From Martelella mediterranea (GTDB lineage Bacteria; Pseudomonadota; Alphaproteobacteria; Rhizobiales; Rhizobiaceae), in the NCBI RefSeq assembly GCF_021021415.1, contig NZ_JAINWJ010000014.1:62001-126000 (forward strand): a DNA stretch of 64,000 nt, in the 5' to 3' direction. Below, piece after piece: positions 10,461-20,833 of the stretch (within the stretch, counting starts at the first letter, position 1; each line of letters begins with the position of its first letter). The position numbers and the translations under genes are program-made. The notes beneath the pieces are model-generated. The model was given only the letters and a program-made list of their open reading frames with translations. It was not told the DNA's origin and did not search any database.

Positions 10461-10943
10461 ATGCGCGAAAGTCTACCCCTGTCAGTCACCGTTGAAGTAC
10501 GGGACCGGTGTATCTGCCTTCACCTCCAGCGCGCCGCGCGGACCGTGGGCCGGTATTTCGACGAGGTGCTGCGACCGCTGGGGCTGACCAACGGCCAGTA
10601 CTCGCTGCTGGTCTCGCTCAACCGGCCGGAACCGCCGCGCGTGGCCGAGGTCGCCCATGTGCTGGCGATGGACCGCACCACGCTGACGGCGAGCATCAAG
10701 CCGTTGGAGCGCCGCGGTCTGATGACCTCGTTCCAGGACGACAAGGACAGGCGTGTGCGCCGGCTGAAACTTACCGATGAGGGTCGCAACCTTCTGGAGA
10801 AGGCCGTGCCGATCTGGCGCGAGACCCATGACCGGATCGACAAGGTCGTTGGCGCGGATATCGACCGGCTGCGCGACAACCTTTTGGCGATGACCTTCGC
10901 CTTGCCCGACCCCGACGACGAGATCAGCGATCCAGAGCCTTGA
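10461..10943 (+). CDS. MarR-family transcriptional regulator
   Basis: 160 residues, a typical MarR length. Dimerisation helices flank a winged HTH: GLTNGQYSLLVSLNRPEPPR, the recognition helix VLAMDRTTLTASIKPLERRG, and the wing SFQDDKDRRVRRLKLTDEGR with the family's D-x-R-x-R pattern. Probably represses itself and the divergent DUF1428 gene. Its last 20 bases overlap the convergent uxuA stop, so the two transcripts collide tail to tail. The ligand is unknown; cysteines are present near the N terminus (DRCICL) and might be redox-active, which is speculation. Confidence 0.9.
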   Translation: MRESLPLSVTVEVRDRCICLHLQRAARTVGRYFDEVLRPLGLTNGQYSLLVSLNRPEPPRVAEVAHVLAMDRTTLTASIKPLERRGLMTSFQDDKDRRVRRLKLTDEGRNLLEKAVPIWRETHDRIDKVVGADIDRLRDNLLAMTFALPDPDDEISDPEP

Positions 10944-12120
10944 GGATGCCGCGCAGTTCCGCAAGCCCCTTCAGCCGGCCGATCGCCGGATAGCCGGGCT
11001 GGGCCCTGCGCTTCTGGTCATCGAGAATGTCGAGGCCGTGATCGGGCCGGAAGGGAATGTTCCAGTCGGCGCGGCCCGCGGCCTTGCGCCCCCGCTCCTC
11101 GGCAATCGCCGCCGCCATCAGCGCCACCATATCGGTATCGCCGCCGAGATGTTCCGATTCATAGAACGAGCCTGCAATGTTGGCGCTCTCGCGATGGACA
11201 TTGCGCAGGTGCAGGAAATGCACCCGGTCACCCAGCCGCTCCATCATGCCAGGCAGGTCGTTGTCGGGCCTTACGCCGAGCGAACCGGAGCAAAGCGTGA
11301 TACCGTTGGCGGGGCTATCGACCGCCTTCATCATCGCCCCGTAATCGGCTTCCGTCGACATCACCCGTGGCAGGCCCAGAAGGCCGAAGGGCGGATCGTC
11401 GGGGTGGCAGCAGAGCCTGAGCCCGAGATCCTCCGCAACCGGCGTCACTTCTTCCAGGAAATCAATGAAATGGGCCCTCAGCCCTTCGGCTGAAATCGTT
11501 GCATATTCGGCGAGATGCCGGCGCACATCTTCCAGCGTGAAACTCTCGGCCGCGCCCGGAAGGCCGAAGACGATGTTCTTTGCCAGTTCAGCCTTGCGCG
11601 CTTCATCCATTTCGCCAAACTGGCGGTCGGCCTCGGCGCGCACATCCTCGGCGAAATCCTCATGCGCGCCGGGACGCTTCAGGATATGGATATCGAAGGC
11701 GGCGAAATCGGCGTAGTCGAAACGCATGCAGGTCGCGCCGGTCTTCAGCCGGTAGGCAAGATCGGTGCGGGTCCAGTCCAGCACCGGCATGAAATTATAG
11801 CAGATTGTCTCGATTCCGGCCTCGGCGAGATTTGCCATGCTTGTCTTGTAATTATCGATATGGCGGCGCCAGTCGCCCTTCTGCTTCTTGATATCCTCCG
11901 AAACCGGCAGGCTTTCGACCACTTCCCATTTCAGCCCGGACGGCGCGCCGTCGCTCATCAGCGATAGCTCGGCCTGCCTCCCAGCGATCTCGGCCGGCGT
12001 CCAGACCTCGCCGGTCGGGACATGGTGCAGCGCGGTGACCACGCCTTCTACGCCAGCCTGCAGCATATCGTCGATCGATACGCGATCCAAAGGTCCAAAC
12101 CAGCGCCATGTCTGCCGCAT
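10924..12120 (-). CDS. uxuA: Mannonate dehydratase
   Basis: Dehydrates D-mannonate to 2-keto-3-deoxy-gluconate in glucuronate catabolism. 398 residues, the usual length. Visible signatures are MRQTWRWFGPLDRVSIDDML at the start, LRLCCHPDDPPFGLLGLPRV around the metal site, FLHLRNVHRESANI and the C-terminal FRPDHGLDILDDQKRRAQPG. Upstream and divergent are a GntR/FCD regulator and a TRAP transporter, the common hexuronate arrangement. The partner fructuronate reductase and uronate isomerase genes are not in the window. Confidence 0.95.
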   Translation of the reverse strand: MRQTWRWFGPLDRVSIDDMLQAGVEGVVTALHHVPTGEVWTPAEIAGRQAELSLMSDGAPSGLKWEVVESLPVSEDIKKQKGDWRRHIDNYKTSMANLAEAGIETICYNFMPVLDWTRTDLAYRLKTGATCMRFDYADFAAFDIHILKRPGAHEDFAEDVRAEADRQFGEMDEARKAELAKNIVFGLPGAAESFTLEDVRRHLAEYATISAEGLRAHFIDFLEEVTPVAEDLGLRLCCHPDDPPFGLLGLPRVMSTEADYGAMMKAVDSPANGITLCSGSLGVRPDNDLPGMMERLGDRVHFLHLRNVHRESANIAGSFYESEHLGGDTDMVALMAAAIAEERGRKAAGRADWNIPFRPDHGLDILDDQKRRAQPGYPAIGRLKGLAELRGILKALDR

Positions 12121-13119: not shown

Positions 13120-14103
13120 ATGAACTACATCGCCAATATCAAAAGCATCGCGCTCGCCGGCCTTGCCGCAAGCCTGATGGCGGGCACGGCGCTTGCCGCT
13201 GACTATACGCTGAGCGTCAACACCGCGCTCGCCACCACGGACCCGCTTTACAAGGGCCTTGAGGCCTTCCGCGACAATGTTGCCGAAGCCTCCGACGGCG
13301 CGCTCGAAGTGCGCCTGTTCCCGAACTCGCAGCTTGGTCCCGACGAGGATGTGCTGGAACAGGCGCGCGCCGGCGCGCCGGTCGCGGTTGTGGTCGACGG
13401 CGGCCGCCTCGCCGTCTTCGTCAACGAATTCGGCGTGCTGGGCGCGCCCTACCTCGCCAATGGCTATGACGGCATCCGCAAGGTCGTCACTTCCGACATG
13501 TTCGACGAGTGGGCGACCACGCTTCACGACGAGGCCGGCCTTGACGTTCTGAGCTTCAACTGGTGGCAGGGCGAACGCCATCTCCTGACCAAGAAGCCGA
13601 TCAACGGGCCGGATGACCTTTCCGGCGTGCGCATGCGCACCCCCGGCGCGCCTGTTTGGACCGGCACGATCGAGGCCATGGGCGCGACGCCGACGCCGAT
13701 GCCCTGGGGCGAGGTCTACTCCGCGATCTCCTCGAATGTCATCGATGGAGCCGAAGCGCAGCTACCCGCCGTCGTCGGCGCCAAGCTTGACGAGGTCATC
13801 ACCAACATCACGCTGACCGGTCATATCAACCTGATCACCGGCCTCATCACCTCCGCCGCGTGGGTGGATTCGCTGCCGGAAAACCTGCAGACGATCCTGC
13901 ACGAGGAAGCGCTGAAGGCCGGCGACATCGCCTCCTACGGCACCCGTGACGCGCTGGCGAGCCTGGAACAGCAGTTGAAGGATGGCGGCGTCACGGTCGA
14001 GGCAATCGACGTTACCCCGTTCAAGGAGCGGACCGCCGTGGTCTATGACAATCTCGGTTACGGCGATCTACGCGACAAGCTGCAGGCCATCGCCGCGCAG
14101 TAA
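13120..14103 (+). CDS. dctP: TRAP transporter substrate-binding protein DctP
   Basis: Periplasmic receptor of a TRAP transporter, 327 residues. A Sec signal peptide (hydrophobic ALAGLAASLMAG, cleavage after ALA near residue 26) precedes the mature protein. Family features: SNSQLG-like LFPNSQLGPDEDVLEQARAG near residue 66, and the GVRMRTPGAPVW segment holding the Arg that usually grips the substrate carboxylate, followed by PTPMPWGEVYSAISSNVIDG. Likely ligand is a hexuronate or related sugar acid because of uxuA and the GntR regulator next door. RBS GGGAGGACGAT. Confidence 0.93.
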   Translation: MNYIANIKSIALAGLAASLMAGTALAADYTLSVNTALATTDPLYKGLEAFRDNVAEASDGALEVRLFPNSQLGPDEDVLEQARAGAPVAVVVDGGRLAVFVNEFGVLGAPYLANGYDGIRKVVTSDMFDEWATTLHDEAGLDVLSFNWWQGERHLLTKKPINGPDDLSGVRMRTPGAPVWTGTIEAMGATPTPMPWGEVYSAISSNVIDGAEAQLPAVVGAKLDEVITNITLTGHINLITGLITSAAWVDSLPENLQTILHEEALKAGDIASYGTRDALASLEQQLKDGGVTVEAIDVTPFKERTAVVYDNLGYGDLRDKLQAIAAQ

Positions 14104-14130
14104 GGCGGCCCGACCCGCTTGAGATAAAGA

Positions 14131-14191
14131 CGGCCGCGCCCTTTCTTCGGGGCGCGGCCGAAAACAACATTCGGCTTCCCCTGGGGAAGCC
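14131..14191 (+). terminator. Two strong hairpins between dctP and dctQ
   Basis: First stem: CGGCCGCGCCC (14131-14141) with GGGCGCGGCCG (14150-14160), 11 bp and an 8-base loop, followed by GAAAACAAC without a T-run. Second stem: GGCTTCCCC (14173-14181) with GGGGAAGCC (14183-14191). Such structures between a receptor gene and membrane-subunit genes commonly protect the upstream mRNA end or attenuate, giving more DctP than DctQM. Confidence 0.6.
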
Positions 14192-14247
14192 CGGGAAAAA
14201 CACGCCGGGGAGCTGTCGCTCCTCGTGCCATATCGGGAGGGGCCACC

Positions 14248-14772
14248 ATGCCCGGTTTCCTCGCAAAGATCGAATATGTCGCAGGCGCGATCCTGCTTGC
14301 GGTCATCACCTTTCTGGTGTTCATCGCCGCGACCATGCGTTTCTTCGGCCATCCGCTGATCTGGTCCGTCGATCTTGCGCAGCTTCTGTTCATCTGGCTC
14401 TGTTTCATCGGCGCGACGCGGGCCATGCGCGAGCGCGGCCATCTGGGCGTCGATTTCCTGGTCCGCCCGTTTCCGCATCGCTACCGGCTGGCGCTGGAGA
14501 CGGCGCTCGCCGCACTGTTCCTCGCCTTTCTCATGCTGCTTGCCTATGAGGGCTACAAGCTCACCATGCTCAACAAGGAACGCCAGTTCGGCGACTCCGG
14601 CCTCTCCTATGCCTGGGTGACGATTGCCGTGCCCGCCGGCTGCGTGATGCTGTCGATCTCGATCCTCGGCAATCTCTGGCAGGCCTGGCGCAATGTGAAG
14701 GACGGGATGCTGGTTTTCACCCGCACCGCGGCCTACGACGAACCGGTGATCCACGCCGGTCCGGCGGAGTAA
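14248..14772 (+). CDS. dctQ: TRAP transporter small permease DctQ
   Basis: 174 residues with four hydrophobic segments (YVAGAILLAVITFLVFIAA; LLFIWLCFIGA; LAALFLAFLMLLAYEG; VTIAVPAGCVMLSISIL), the DctQ fold. The segment HPLIWSVDLAQLLFIWLCFI with a following ARAM/RERGHLGVD motif is characteristic. It forms the membrane complex with DctM. Lies 4 bases before dctM and follows dctP after the hairpin region. Confidence 0.92.
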   Translation: MPGFLAKIEYVAGAILLAVITFLVFIAATMRFFGHPLIWSVDLAQLLFIWLCFIGATRAMRERGHLGVDFLVRPFPHRYRLALETALAALFLAFLMLLAYEGYKLTMLNKERQFGDSGLSYAWVTIAVPAGCVMLSISILGNLWQAWRNVKDGMLVFTRTAAYDEPVIHAGPAE

Positions 14773-14776
14773 GCCC

Positions 14777-16057
14777 ATGGCCCTGATCGGTATCGTCTTC
14801 TTCGCCCTGATGCTGCTTGGCGCGCCGATTGCCTTCGCGATCGGCATTTCGGGCTTCACCTTCTTCCTGACCTCCGACATCATGCCGGTCTCGATCGGCG
14901 TGCAGAAGATCGCGACCGTTTCGCAAAGCTTCCCGCTGCTGGCGGTTCCCTTTTTCGTGCTCGCTGGCCATCTGATGAACGAAAGCGGCATCACCGACCG
15001 GTTGTTCACCTTCTCCAAGGTCGCGGTCGGCTGGATGGCGGGCGGCCTCGCGCAGGTCTCGATCATCCTGTCGACGCTGATGGGCGGCGTGTCCGGCTCG
15101 GCCGTCGCCGATGCGGCCATGGAAGCGCGCGTGCTCGGTCCGCAGATGATCTCCAACGGCTATTCGAAGGGCTATTCCTCCGCCGTGATCGCGATGTCCT
15201 CGCTGATCACCGCGACCATTCCGCCATCGATCGGCCTGATCCTCTATGGCTATGTCGGTCAGGTCTCGATCGGCCGGCTGTTCATGGCCGGCATCGTGCC
15301 CGGCTTGCTGATGATGGCGTTCCTGATGGTTGCCGCCTGGCTCGTCGCCCGCAAACGCAACTACGTCATGAGCGACATGAGGAAGCCGACCGCCGGCGAA
15401 CTCGGCCGCGCCGCCTGGGGCGCCAAATGGGCGCTGCTGTTTCCCGTGCTTCTGATCGGCTCGATCCGCGGCGGGCTGTTCACGCCATCGGAAGTTGGTG
15501 CGTTCGCGGTGGTCTACGCTATCCTCGTCGGCGTCTTCGCCCACCGGGTGATGACGTTTGAGACGATCAAGCGGGCCTTCGGCCATGCGCTGTCGGATAT
15601 CGGCCTGATCATGCTGATCATCCTGATGTCGGGCATGATCGGGTTCGCGATCATCTTCCTTCAGGTGCCGCAGAGCGTGGCGGGCTTCATGCTGGAAAGC
15701 CTCGCAAATCCGGTTCTGATCGTCACCGTCATCCTGATCGGCCTGTTCATCGCCGGCCTGTTTTTCGAAAGCACGATCCTGGTGCTGCTGCTGACGCCGA
15801 TCCTCGTCCCGGTCGTGGTCAAGGCGGGCGTCGACCCGGTGCATTTCGGCATCCTGATGATGACCATCGTCACCTTCGGCGGCATGACGCCGCCGGTCGG
15901 CGTCGCGATGTTCACGGTCTGCAGCCTGCTGGACACCAAGATCGAGGATTATGTGAAGGAATCCTGGCCGTTCATCGCCGCCATCATGGCGCTGGTGGCG
16001 CTGCTTCTGTTCGTGCCGGGCATCGCGCTGTTCCTGCCGAACCTGATGTACGGGTAG
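14777..16057 (+). CDS. dctM: TRAP transporter large permease DctM
   Basis: 426-residue large membrane subunit, 12 or so hydrophobic segments, standard length. Diagnostic motifs: PLLAVPFFVLAGHLMNESGI, LMGGVSGSAVADAAMEARVL, SSLITATIPPSIGLILYGYV, and near the C terminus FGGMTPPVGVAMFTVCSL. Sodium-driven import of the solute delivered by DctP. Completes a dctP-Q-M set beside uxuA and gntR. The 271 bases that follow (16058-16328) hold no gene or clear terminator that I can see. Confidence 0.96.
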   Translation: MALIGIVFFALMLLGAPIAFAIGISGFTFFLTSDIMPVSIGVQKIATVSQSFPLLAVPFFVLAGHLMNESGITDRLFTFSKVAVGWMAGGLAQVSIILSTLMGGVSGSAVADAAMEARVLGPQMISNGYSKGYSSAVIAMSSLITATIPPSIGLILYGYVGQVSIGRLFMAGIVPGLLMMAFLMVAAWLVARKRNYVMSDMRKPTAGELGRAAWGAKWALLFPVLLIGSIRGGLFTPSEVGAFAVVYAILVGVFAHRVMTFETIKRAFGHALSDIGLIMLIILMSGMIGFAIIFLQVPQSVAGFMLESLANPVLIVTVILIGLFIAGLFFESTILVLLLTPILVPVVVKAGVDPVHFGILMMTIVTFGGMTPPVGVAMFTVCSLLDTKIEDYVKESWPFIAAIMALVALLLFVPGIALFLPNLMYG

Positions 16058-17666: not shown

Positions 17667-18665
17667 TCAGCCCTGCGCCACCCCTTCGATCACATCCATC
17701 CCTCCGACGACGGGCGCGAAATCGCTCCACACGCCCCGCGCTCCCGCGCGCCAGGCGTCCATCTCCTCCGGCTCAAGGAAAGTGGCGCCGTTGGCCTCGG
17801 CAAGCGCCACGGATTGGGCCTCGTCCTCGACGATCAGGCGATTGAAATAGAGCGCGGCCTCGGCCGAGATCGCGCGGAGGATGGTCTGTGTCTCGGGATC
17901 CAGACTGTTCCAGAAGCCGGCTGAAAAATAAAGCACCCCGGCGGCGCGGATATGGCGGGTTTCGGTCATGAACGGCACCACTTCGTAGAGCTTGAAGCCG
18001 GCATAGGCCGATTTGGTCAGGTCCATGGCATCCGCCACGCCGGTGGCGAGCGCGTTATAGGTTTCGGTGATCGGGATGCCGACCGGCGTCGCGCCGTAGG
18101 CGTTCCACAGGCGCGTGTGGAGCGGCGTGTTGATGACGCGGATGGTCTTGCCTTCCATTTGTCCGGGCCGCGTGACTGGTGCCTTGGCCAGCAGGTTGCG
18201 GGCCCCGTAATCGATGAAGCCACCGACGATAAACTGCTCTTGCGCAAGCCGGGCGGAGAGGTCGTCGCCGATCGGCCCGGTGACGACCTCGCGAAGATGG
18301 GCGGCATCGCGAAACAGGAAAGGCAGGTCGAGCAACTGCAATTGCGGCGTCCAGGCCGAAAGCGCCGAAACGGTGGAGAGGCTCGCCTGCACCGATCCGA
18401 GACGGATATTCTCGGCCACCTGTTTTTCGCCGCCGAGCGCGCCATTGGTCACGATCCGGAAGCGGAACCGGCCAGGAAACCGCTGTTCGACCTCATCGGC
18501 GAAGAAGCGCCAGACCATGGTTTCCGGCTTGTCCTCGCCGAGGAGCGAGGCGATGACGACATCGCGCGTGGCGCCGCTGGCGGTTCGCAGATAGGCGGGC
18601 GCGGCAAGCATTGCGGCGGCCGCGGCGCCTGTTTTCAGGAGATGGCGACGATTGAGCGTAGTCAT
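17667..18665 (-). CDS. dctP: TRAP transporter substrate-binding protein (TPP-riboswitch operon)
   Basis: 332 residues. N terminus TTLNRRHLLKTGAAAAAMLA has a twin-arginine-like motif and a hydrophobic core, predicting export, possibly by Tat. The mature part follows the DctP pattern: FPGRFRFRIVTNGALGGEKQ, LDLPFLFRDAAHLREVVTGP, GKTIRVINTPLHTRLWNAYG with the conserved Arg, and GIPITETYNALATGVADAMD. ATG at 18665 is preferred to TTG at 18674. It begins 14 bases after the fused permease gene whose leader is a TPP riboswitch, so the ligand may be thiamine, a thiamine precursor or a breakdown product. Canonical DctP ligands are carboxylates; that conflict is unresolved. Confidence 0.9.
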   Translation of the reverse strand: MTTLNRRHLLKTGAAAAAMLAAPAYLRTASGATRDVVIASLLGEDKPETMVWRFFADEVEQRFPGRFRFRIVTNGALGGEKQVAENIRLGSVQASLSTVSALSAWTPQLQLLDLPFLFRDAAHLREVVTGPIGDDLSARLAQEQFIVGGFIDYGARNLLAKAPVTRPGQMEGKTIRVINTPLHTRLWNAYGATPVGIPITETYNALATGVADAMDLTKSAYAGFKLYEVVPFMTETRHIRAAGVLYFSAGFWNSLDPETQTILRAISAEAALYFNRLIVEDEAQSVALAEANGATFLEPEEMDAWRAGARGVWSDFAPVVGGMDVIEGVAQG

Positions 18666-18679
18666 GGCAGACAAACCTT

Positions 18680-20608
18680 TCAGACAGGAACAGCGAAGAG
18701 GGTGATGACGAACAGGGCGGCGAGAAGCGCCAGAAGAAAGGGACGCATCGCCCTGAACAGGCTTTCCGGCGAAAGACCGGTGACGCCGCCGACAACGAAG
18801 GCCAGCATGCCGACCGGCGGGGTTAGCCCGCCGATCATCAGGTTGACGACGAGGACGACGCCGAAGCGGATCGGATCGATCCCGGCGGAAACGGCGACCG
18901 GCAGCAGGACGGGACCAAGAAGCAGGATCGCCGCCCCGATATCCATTACCAGGCCCGCAATCAGCAGGATCACATTGGCGAGCAGGAGCACGGCAACGGC
19001 GCTGCCCCCGAACAGGCCGGCGAGGTGGCGCACCAGACCGGCGATATCGTCGATCGCGAGCAGGAAGGCGACGGGGGCCGCCGCGCCGATCAGCAGACCG
19101 ATCGCCGCCGCCTCTGCCGCCGACTGGCGGAAGGCGGCGACAATGCTTGAACCGGAACGGCGGGATAGCGCCGCGAGGATCAGCGTGTAGAGCGCCGCAA
19201 GACCCGCCGCCTCGGTCGTCGTGACGATTCCCAGGCGAATGCCGAACACCACGATCAGGCCGAGGCCGAAGACCGGCAGGGCCGCGATCCCGGCCTGCCT
19301 GCGCATTTCAGCCGAAGCCCGCGGCGCGCCGCTCGCGGCCCCCATCGCAAGCCTTATGGCTACAGCGAGAAAGGCCGCCATCAGCAGGCCGGCAAACAGC
19401 CCGCCGACAAGCAGCGCCCCCACCGAAAGATTGGTCGCCGTCGCCAGGATGAGAAAGGCGATCGACGGCGGGATGACGTTGTCGAGAACCGAGGATGCGG
19501 CGACAAGCGCGCCGGCGCGGGCGGGCGAATAGCCATGGCGCACCAGTTCGGGATGGAAGGTCGAGGCGGCAAAGGCGGCATTGGCGACGGAAGAACCGGA
19601 CGCGCCGGAAAACAGAACCCCTGTCAAAAGCGTCGTCTGCGCCAGCCCGCCACGATAATGACCAACGAGCGAGGCCGCGAACTGCACGAGTTTGCCGGCC
19701 GCGCCCGAGAGCTTCAGAAACGCGCCCGCGAGGAGAAAGAACGGGATCGCCAGCAGCAGGAATTTCGACATGCCGGCGACCGTATTGGCGATGATCGCCT
19801 GCTCCGTCTGCAGCGCGCCGAAGGCGATCGCGCCGTAGGACGATGCCAGAAACACATGGGCGAGCGGCGCACCGGCGATGACGCCGAGCGCGGCGGCAAG
19901 GGCGAGCGGCAGGCTGGCCGGTAGTGCGATATCGATCGCGAACCGGCCGACAGCCCAGTAAACAAACCCGCCGAGCGCGAAGCCGAAGATCAGCCGCGCG
20001 CCGCTTGAGCGCTCCAGGTGGCGCAGGCAGAGCAGCACGAGCAGACCCAGCCCGCCCGCCACCGGAAAGGCGAAGCGCACCCATTCCGGAACCCCAAGCG
20101 TTGGCGACATTCCGCCAAGCAACGCGATCGCCTCACGTCCGCCGAGGCACAGGATCAAGCCCGCGACGACGCTGAAGCCGTCGGCCACAGCAGCGAGCAC
20201 GCCGGACGCCCGATCGGGCAGCAGCCTTGCAAGCCCATCGAGCCGCATCGACAGCGGGCCCGAAAGGGTAAGCGGCAGGCCGGCCGAGATCAGCGCGATG
20301 TTCAGCCAGACGCCCAGATCCTCCATGCCGACGACGCCGGTGTGGAAGCCATAGCGCAGCACGACGCCCGCCACGACAAGAGCGAGCATCGCCATCAGAA
20401 TGACAGCGGCGAGCATGCCGAGCGCCGTTTCCAGCGCGTCCGCAAACCGTCCGGCGGTGCTGCGGATCGCCGTCATGGGCACGGACGATGCCGTTCGCAG
20501 GCGGCGCCTGTCTCGAAACATCCGTTCGGACGGCTGAACCATCGGCGGCCCGCGCATGGCATTGGAAGGCAAGACTTCATGATGCGATCCCCAGGATGTT
20601 GCAATCAC
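18680..20608 (-). CDS. Fused TRAP transporter permease DctQM, TPP-riboswitch controlled
   Basis: 642 residues. About residues 45-210 form a DctQ-type small subunit (TALGMLAAVILMAMLALVVA, GMEDLGVWLNIALISAGLPL, MRLDGLARLLPDRASG) and the remainder a DctM large subunit (FLLLAIPFFLLAGAFLKLSG, GASGSSVANAAFAASTF, NVIPPSIAFLILATATNLSV, MIGGLTPPVGMLAFVVGG). Such Q-M fusions are a known TRAP variant. Start is uncertain: GTG at 20608 lies 45 bases after the riboswitch, with in-frame ATGs at 20557, 20542, 20521 and 20476; none has a strong ribosome site, and the first 44 residues look non-conserved. Followed closely by its DctP. Confidence 0.9.
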   Translation of the reverse strand: MIATSWGSHHEVLPSNAMRGPPMVQPSERMFRDRRRLRTASSVPMTAIRSTAGRFADALETALGMLAAVILMAMLALVVAGVVLRYGFHTGVVGMEDLGVWLNIALISAGLPLTLSGPLSMRLDGLARLLPDRASGVLAAVADGFSVVAGLILCLGGREAIALLGGMSPTLGVPEWVRFAFPVAGGLGLLVLLCLRHLERSSGARLIFGFALGGFVYWAVGRFAIDIALPASLPLALAAALGVIAGAPLAHVFLASSYGAIAFGALQTEQAIIANTVAGMSKFLLLAIPFFLLAGAFLKLSGAAGKLVQFAASLVGHYRGGLAQTTLLTGVLFSGASGSSVANAAFAASTFHPELVRHGYSPARAGALVAASSVLDNVIPPSIAFLILATATNLSVGALLVGGLFAGLLMAAFLAVAIRLAMGAASGAPRASAEMRRQAGIAALPVFGLGLIVVFGIRLGIVTTTEAAGLAALYTLILAALSRRSGSSIVAAFRQSAAEAAAIGLLIGAAAPVAFLLAIDDIAGLVRHLAGLFGGSAVAVLLLANVILLIAGLVMDIGAAILLLGPVLLPVAVSAGIDPIRFGVVLVVNLMIGGLTPPVGMLAFVVGGVTGLSPESLFRAMRPFLLALLAALFVITLFAVPV

Positions 20609-20652
20609 GGAGACCGGCGAGAAGAGAAAGGTTATGGCAGAGCGGCCAGATT

Positions 20653-20738
20653 TTCCGTTCCTACGCCGGCATGACCCGGATCAGGTTCAAGGGTCCGGCT
20701 CACCGCCGTCTCAGCATCGCACGATGCACCCCTCGGAA
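20653..20738 (-). ncRNA. TPP (thi-box) riboswitch upstream of a TRAP transporter
   Basis: On the minus strand: P1 strand TTCCG, then AGGGGTGC, a short variable helix (ATCGTGCGAT), GCTGAGA, a second variable helix (GGCGGTGAGCC region), ACCCTTGAACCTGATCCGGG, TCATGCCGGCGTAGGAA and closing CGGAA. All thi-box core elements are present and P1 closes perfectly. The next gene, 45 bases on, is the fused DctQM. No stem with a U-run follows, so control may be translational. TPP would be expected to lower expression. Confidence 0.97.
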
Positions 20739-20833
20739 TAGTCAGGTTTTGTCCGGCTTTTGGGCCTGTGTCAATGGCATGCCGCAAGGCATGGCCGGAA
20801 GCGCCGATGCCGGTTATTTCGGAACGGCCGTTT

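Follow-up and report, generated by a model that had tools for sequence, protein, structure and literature searches.

Introduction

Tripartite ATP-independent periplasmic (TRAP) transporters import through a DctQM-type permease driven by an ion gradient, and their DctP receptors, as work on SiaP has established, bind an anionic group of the ligand via a conserved arginine. Besides the ATP-binding cassette (ABC) systems ThiBPQ and ThiXYZ, transporters controlled by thiamine pyrophosphate (TPP) riboswitches include ThiT, PnuT, CytX and ThiV. Here we analyse a TRAP transporter that lies directly behind a TPP riboswitch in a 64,000-nucleotide stretch of the Martelella mediterranea genome (contig NZ_JAINWJ010000014.1, positions 62,001 to 126,000; "the window" denotes this whole stretch). 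From its sequence, operon context and genome distribution we propose that it is probably a TPP-repressed importer for the thiazole half of thiamine.

PMC6429828 describes ThiW as a predicted transporter of hydroxyethylthiazole phosphate (HET-P). According to PMC5899164, Ostreococcus depends on ThiM to use the carboxythiazole cHET, a carboxylated form of hydroxyethylthiazole (HET), which enters the ThiE reaction as cHET-P; E. coli lacking thiG makes use of cHET at sub-picomolar levels, and thiazole transport systems were drawn there in 2018 as being of "unknown sequence identity". A gene for high-affinity thiazole uptake is a gap for which a riboswitch-led TRAP system in genomes without thiG provides a direct, testable candidate.

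Results

A TPP riboswitch heads a TRAP transporter operon

On the minus strand of the window, the Rfam model RF00059 matches positions 20641 to 20743 over its whole length (model 1-105; 75.3 bits, E 7.2e-14, gathering cut-off 54.3), a match that encloses the aptamer called at 20653 to 20738 in the initial annotation. The next two genes downstream on the same strand are, as that annotation had it, dctQM (18680 to 20476, start inferred), predicted to encode a 598-residue fusion of the small and large TRAP permease subunits, and dctP (17667 to 18665, ATG at 18665), which encodes the solute receptor. The Pfam domains DctQ (55.7 bits), DctM (277.8 bits) and DctP (192.4 bits) all exceed their cut-offs and the genes adjoin, as expected of a TRAP transporter; DctQM also passes NCBIfam TIGR00786 (279.4 bits, cut-off 268.45), and DctP falls under the curated cut-off of subfamily TIGR00787 (162.7 bits, cut-off 175.05). 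The Tat-like (twin-arginine translocation) signal earlier noted on the receptor is borne out by Pfam TAT_signal (23.8 bits, cut-off 22.7, for a query beginning three codons after the ATG). With an E-value limit of 0.001, searches of Pfam and NCBIfam matched the two proteins to TRAP and Tat-signal families only, and to none of the ThiB- or ThiY-type ABC receptor families.

The 5.4-Mb genome holds five TPP aptamers, and the other four head thiX-thiY of an ABC importer, thiM-thiE-thiD, thiBPQ and a lone thiC. Its ThiB scores 391.6 bits against TIGR01276 (equivalog cut-off 317), ThiP and ThiQ share 84% identity with their counterparts in a relative, and the best PDB match of ThiY is 3ix1, a formylaminopyrimidine-binding protein; thiX is named from context, the closest NCBIfam models, for the R. 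deserti protein, being sulfonate-type permeases below cut-off. Uptake of thiamine and of pyrimidine, pyrimidine synthesis, a thiazole kinase and the joining enzyme are all present in this genome. No true ThiG was found there, the sole match being a 23.8-bit fragment where true ThiG exceeds 300 bits, and neither was any source of thiazole. Because the other TPP riboswitches of the genome already serve thiBPQ, thiX-thiY, thiM-thiE-thiD and thiC, a thiazole ligand for the TRAP system is favoured by elimination.

Orthologues in close relatives

Among 61 genomes, comprising the window's own and 60 relatives, with ThiG counted as true above 300 bits, 11 carry an orthologue of the system at 57-100% identity, paralogues reaching at most 33% among the matches listed. 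A TPP riboswitch lies directly upstream in 10 of these, the window and nine of the ten relatives. In the eleventh (G020) a contig break precedes dctQM and a second contig carries a riboswitch followed by thiX-thiY-thiM-thiE-thiD; the two contig ends share a 55-nucleotide exact overlap that would put the riboswitch and the thi genes before dctQM. In five relatives thiE stands between the riboswitch and dctQM, its stop overlapping the next start wherever inspected (L039, L040 and L043); ThiE was identified by TIGR00693 (178 and 166 bits, cut-off 145). True ThiG occurs in none of the 11 carriers versus 26 of the 50 other genomes, and ThiM occurs in all 11, so that each close carrier has the gene content expected of a user of imported thiazole, ThiM without ThiG.

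Operon context across the receptor family

For a wider view we took the best 80 of 195 relatives in named genomes, ranked by likeness to the window protein; the 195 had been found through two peptide patterns, and the 80 are not a random sample. Each fetched flank reached 6 kb upstream, or less in L108 and L159, beyond which elements would be missed, and riboswitches were sought with a TPP model built from 30 aptamers. A TPP riboswitch was found at 21 of the 80 loci, whole in 14 and cut by the flank end in 7, and 20 of these 21 have thi genes upstream of dctQM: 17 have thiX-thiY, 13 of them together with thiM-thiE-thiD, three have thiE alone, and one has the riboswitch only. A thiamine-precursor salvage operon is thus shared by 20 of the 21 riboswitch loci, though not by the window locus, and in Rhizobium lemnae consecutive genes overlap at their ends from thiM through thiE and thiD to dctQM. 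Of 12 homologues in a plasmid collection, five are preceded by the riboswitch, four of these with thiX-thiY-thiM-thiE-thiD; in viral contigs tblastn found no relative. The placing of this TRAP system in the thiamine regulon, as first suggested for the window, is upheld by the riboswitch in 10 of 11 orthologue genomes, and across a contig break in the eleventh, together with the thi genes at 20 of 21 riboswitch loci. That the locus might be unrelated to thiamine for want of a thi neighbour was rejected on account of the thi operons in relatives.

The 59 riboswitch-free loci are different in kind. Within the fetched flank none has a same-strand match to thiX, thiY, thiM, thiE or thiD; 36 combine an SsuA-like protein with an SsuD-like monooxygenase before dctQM, 6 show a monooxygenase match only and 17 neither, and a dctQM match precedes dctP in 57 of the 59 (none in L092 and L109). 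In Agrobacterium pusense the SsuD-like monooxygenase scores 426 bits, below the cut-off of 510, and the best PDB match of the SsuA-like neighbour, which by eye has no evident signal peptide at its start, is 2x26, an aliphatic-sulfonate-binding protein. SsuA-like and SsuD-like genes lie with the receptor at L087 (2124-4111), L163 (4948-6983) and L190 (4725-6725), sometimes with an ArsR-type regulator; here too a signal peptide seems absent from the SsuA-like protein. The TRAP importer of the riboswitch-free branch perhaps belongs to an uncharacterised route of organosulfur metabolism. A thiamine role for the whole receptor family was accordingly rejected, 59 of the 80 loci having neither a riboswitch nor a thi match in the flank. 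The expectation that orthologues would regularly carry the riboswitch holds for the window's own clade (28 of 28 rows of the tree described below) and, within the fetched flank, fails for those 59 homologues.

We also observed that the dctQM match of L189 (7377-8809) and the dctP match of L190 (8917-9881) each come in two overlapping pieces, which may reflect frameshifts or sequencing errors.

Thiamine gene content of named genomes

Gene content was compared for 50 loci in 49 named genomes, every one of the 21 with a riboswitch and 29 of the 59 without; R. straminoryzae (G078), with one locus of each type, was counted as a carrier. True ThiG is present in 2 of 21 riboswitch carriers versus 13 of 28 others (Fisher p 0.011, uncorrected for kinship), leaving 19 of the 21 without it. 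ThiM does not separate the groups (strong matches in 21 of 21 versus 24 of 28), and ThiC is found in 7 of 21 carriers, one in partial pieces, versus 19 of 28 others. Because ThiC differs as well, carriers have less of the thiamine pathway as a whole, beyond its thiazole branch. ThiG without ThiC occurs in none of 32 carriers (11 close and 21 named, with species partly shared). One genome first counted as riboswitch-free (G089) has ThiC without ThiG, and a second copy of the system there has the riboswitch and thi genes; without it, 13 of 27 others have true ThiG.

Receptor phylogeny, residues and structure

In a first tree of 91 rows, without outgroup rows, a single supported clade (99/99) takes in 28 of the 31 riboswitch rows, three pairs of them seemingly from the same genomes, and no other rows; the riboswitch-bearing L044, L105 and L144 fall outside it. 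For a second tree of 78 rows, 3 duplicates and 26 near-copies were dropped, 11 loci and 5 distant paralogues (the outgroup) were added, and L045 was labelled riboswitch-bearing. Here the main riboswitch clade is not recovered as one branch, the base of the tree is unresolved and the outgroup rows are long. Supported branches force at least two changes of riboswitch label in the first tree and four in the second, and for this reason the link between riboswitch and TRAP system must have arisen, or been kept, in several lineages. In the Neorhizobium sp. SOG26 plasmid (L191, 6867-9900) a TPP riboswitch stands directly before dctQM-dctP, and the receptor groups with that of riboswitch-free L109 in the second tree, apparently a separate recruitment. 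Two record titles look wrong in the first tree, "Bacillus subtilis SK6B4" (L136) grouping with Pseudochrobactrum and "Marinicella sp. W31" (L084) with Martelella.

All 28 rows of the riboswitch clade have Asp149 and Arg237, and all 59 riboswitch-free loci have Asn149 and Trp237. Of the three outlying riboswitch receptors, two show the Asn/Trp pair and the third His/Phe. Across 49 aligned receptors Arg153 and Arg173 never vary, and they line up with arginines of the TRAP receptor 4n15; the second of them, Arg173, we take from the SiaP work to be the one that holds the ligand carboxylate in TRAP receptors. An AlphaFold2 model of the window DctP has a predicted local distance difference test score (pLDDT) of 87.7, and its ten best PDB chains in Foldseek are all TRAP receptors, with template modelling (TM) scores normalised to the query of 0.83-0.85.

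Leader and neighbouring genes

Between the riboswitch and dctQM lies a short open reading frame (ORF) of 35 codons (20473 to 20580, minus strand), preceded by the Shine-Dalgarno (SD)-like sequence GGGGA. The start of dctQM is most likely the ATG at 20476 rather than the GTG at 20608 that begins the mechanically called ORF, since the SD-preceded leader ORF ends at this ATG in an ATGA overlap. By script, short leader ORFs with an ATGA or GTGA overlap were found in eight other Martelella-type leaders (L036, L037, L039-L043 and L084) and, by eye, a 10-codon ORF in L038; all ten Martelella-type copies inspected thus have, between riboswitch and first gene, a short ORF of 10-35 codons with an SD-like sequence. 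The overlap perhaps serves translational coupling. Short overlapping ORFs were also listed by the script in some other loci.

In fold calculations on the window leader, the mean unpaired probability of the SD is 0.02 with P1 forced versus 0.34 with P1 blocked, values that for the window favour masking of the SD once P1 forms. Among eight relatives only L036 changes in the same direction (0.03 versus 0.16, weak support), the other seven differing by at most 0.02 or reversing.

The locus is flanked by a transglycosylase gene upstream and a GGDEF gene downstream on the opposite strand, and the stretch listed around it holds no adjoining thi gene, as the initial annotation had observed. A second TRAP set in the window (13120-16057; separate dctP, dctQ and dctM by eye) has no Rfam TPP match, and a gene near it (10924-12120) resembles mannonate dehydratase; this set perhaps serves hexuronate use.

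Discussion

We put at roughly 60% the probability that the TRAP system of the window imports the thiazole half of thiamine under TPP repression. The data bear directly on the riboswitch, the gene family, its conservation, the operon partners and the absence of thiazole synthase alongside ThiM in the carriers; transport, ligand and direction of regulation are all inferred from sequence. The most likely ligand of DctP would be cHET, with HET second: cHET is anionic and the receptor conserves its arginines, and HET, which has no acid group, is a poorer fit for an arginine-based receptor. A carboxylated thiazole was already among the ligands raised in the initial annotation. As RF00059 membership suggests, the riboswitch would permit expression of dctQM-dctP when TPP is low; Tat-exported DctP would capture the thiazole precursor in the periplasm and DctQM would import it with the ion gradient. 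ThiM would then phosphorylate the precursor and ThiE join it to hydroxymethylpyrimidine pyrophosphate (HMP-PP), itself supplied via ThiC or from pyrimidine imported by ThiXY. A broader account, which we hold as tentative and as somewhat more apt to fail than to stand, would make this the first sequence-identified high-affinity cHET importer, with a sister branch taking organosulfur anions for sulfur release and with sulfur-acid receptors recruited to the thiamine regulon more than once.

Several observations weigh against a thiazole importer. The SsuA-like and SsuD-like genes at 36 of the 59 riboswitch-free loci point to a sulfonate or other organosulfur anion as the ligand of that branch, and L105 and L144, which have both riboswitch and thi genes, keep the residues typical of it. 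Within the genus, four of the 13 genomes keep ThiM with neither true ThiG nor this TRAP system, so loss of thiG does not always go with the system; these four are also without ThiC, and the genes behind the riboswitches inspected in them encode ThiB, ThiXY or a ThiX/ThiY-like set, TenA included (TenA by eye). Five of the 27 genomes without a riboswitch-led copy have ThiC and no ThiG, with neither a second, riboswitch-led copy nor a known thiazole route found there, and two of the 21 riboswitch carriers do have ThiG. The genomes cannot count as independent, since a single genus supplies 9 of the 11 close carriers. Lastly, 14 of the 21 riboswitch carriers are without ThiC too, a gene content compatible with a pyrimidine or thiamine ligand.

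Four other explanations were weighed. The one to which we give most room, though we still think it unlikely, is that the TRAP system takes an ordinary acid of organosulfur or C4 type and that its riboswitch reports metabolic demand rather than a thiamine precursor: homologues 59-67% identical show no riboswitch in the flank, many beside SsuA-like and SsuD-like genes, and L105, L144 and L044 bear one outside the main clade. That all 20 of the 80 loci with same-strand thi genes upstream of dctQM are riboswitch-bearing speaks for a thiamine role instead, as do the repeated label changes on the trees, which imply the link in several lineages. About as improbable is import of the pyrimidine half, whether as hydroxymethylpyrimidine (HMP), formylaminopyrimidine or the pyrimidine methanesulfonate released by sulfite. 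Sulfite cleavage of thiamine yields a pyrimidine sulfonate, thiD is present in 13 of 21 operons, and the sister branch sits in a sulfonate-like context; but thiX-thiY already stands in 17 of the 21, the window ThiY matches the pyrimidine-binding 3ix1, and 6 of the 11 close carriers, with ThiC present and ThiG missing, should make HMP phosphate (HMP-P) themselves.

Import of thiamine itself or of a thiamine phosphate strikes us as a slim prospect. TPP riboswitches commonly precede thiamine importers, and the carriers without both ThiC and ThiG, 14 of the 21 named, could live on thiamine; the window genome, however, already has thiBPQ under its own TPP riboswitch, G003, G015 and G020 likewise have a riboswitch-led thiB, and the thiM, thiE and thiD genes of the TRAP operons act on precursors and not on thiamine. 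An aptamer that is mere chance or a dead relic before an unrelated transporter is scarcely credible. No thi gene adjoins it in the window and the predicted SD masking was not reproduced in the eight folded relatives, but it is full-length with a conserved core and is kept before orthologues 63-93% identical. Because only five TPP aptamers occur in 5.4 Mb and the arrangement is kept across orthologues, chance in particular was ruled out.

We found no paper that ties a TRAP transporter to a TPP riboswitch or to thiamine import, in a search that covered long listings in part and had subscription papers and supplements outside its range. The accessible part of PMC3766115 names no TRAP transporter, its additional file of 19 transporter groups lying outside the search, and no link between TRAP and TPP riboswitches appears in the accessible parts of PMC9870897, PMC3284542, PMC6478431, PMC6429828, PMC12542648, PMC5320631, PMC10269641, PMC3333776 and PMC8383342. 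A regulon database may already list the link.

Each part of this system is of a known kind, and it is the combination of TPP riboswitch and TRAP transporter that appears new. Among TRAP systems of the DctPQM type, that of Burkholderia ambifaria (receptor 4n15/4ln5) shares the Pfam families DctP, DctQ and DctM, a TM score (query) of 0.83-0.84 at 28% identity, and the arginines of the GAR and RV motifs; unlike it, the window system stands behind a TPP riboswitch and belongs to a family with thi-gene links, and where 4n15 reads DAAENNLPSY the window family reads DAMDLTKSAY. With the TPP-riboswitch-controlled transporters (ThiBPQ and ThiXYZ, and likewise ThiT, PnuT, CytX and ThiV) it has in common an RF00059 aptamer in the leader, operons shared with thiM, thiE and thiD and a proposed role in uptake of thiamine or its precursors, but no sequence kinship at E 0.001 in Pfam and NCBIfam. 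ThiW is likewise a predicted thiazole-type importer of the thiamine gene set, presumably of another protein family and from other taxa. Homologous TRAP systems also stand in SsuA-like/SsuD-like operons of Agrobacterium, Rhizobium, Thioclava and Marinibacterium; receptors at the 59 riboswitch-free loci are 59-67% identical to that of the window and differ in Asn149 and Trp237 and in a fetched flank free of riboswitch and thi matches at all 59. If the window system is indeed a thiazole importer, it would add a transporter class to the thiamine regulon beside these known systems and would allow vitamin exchange in seas and soils to be read from genomes.

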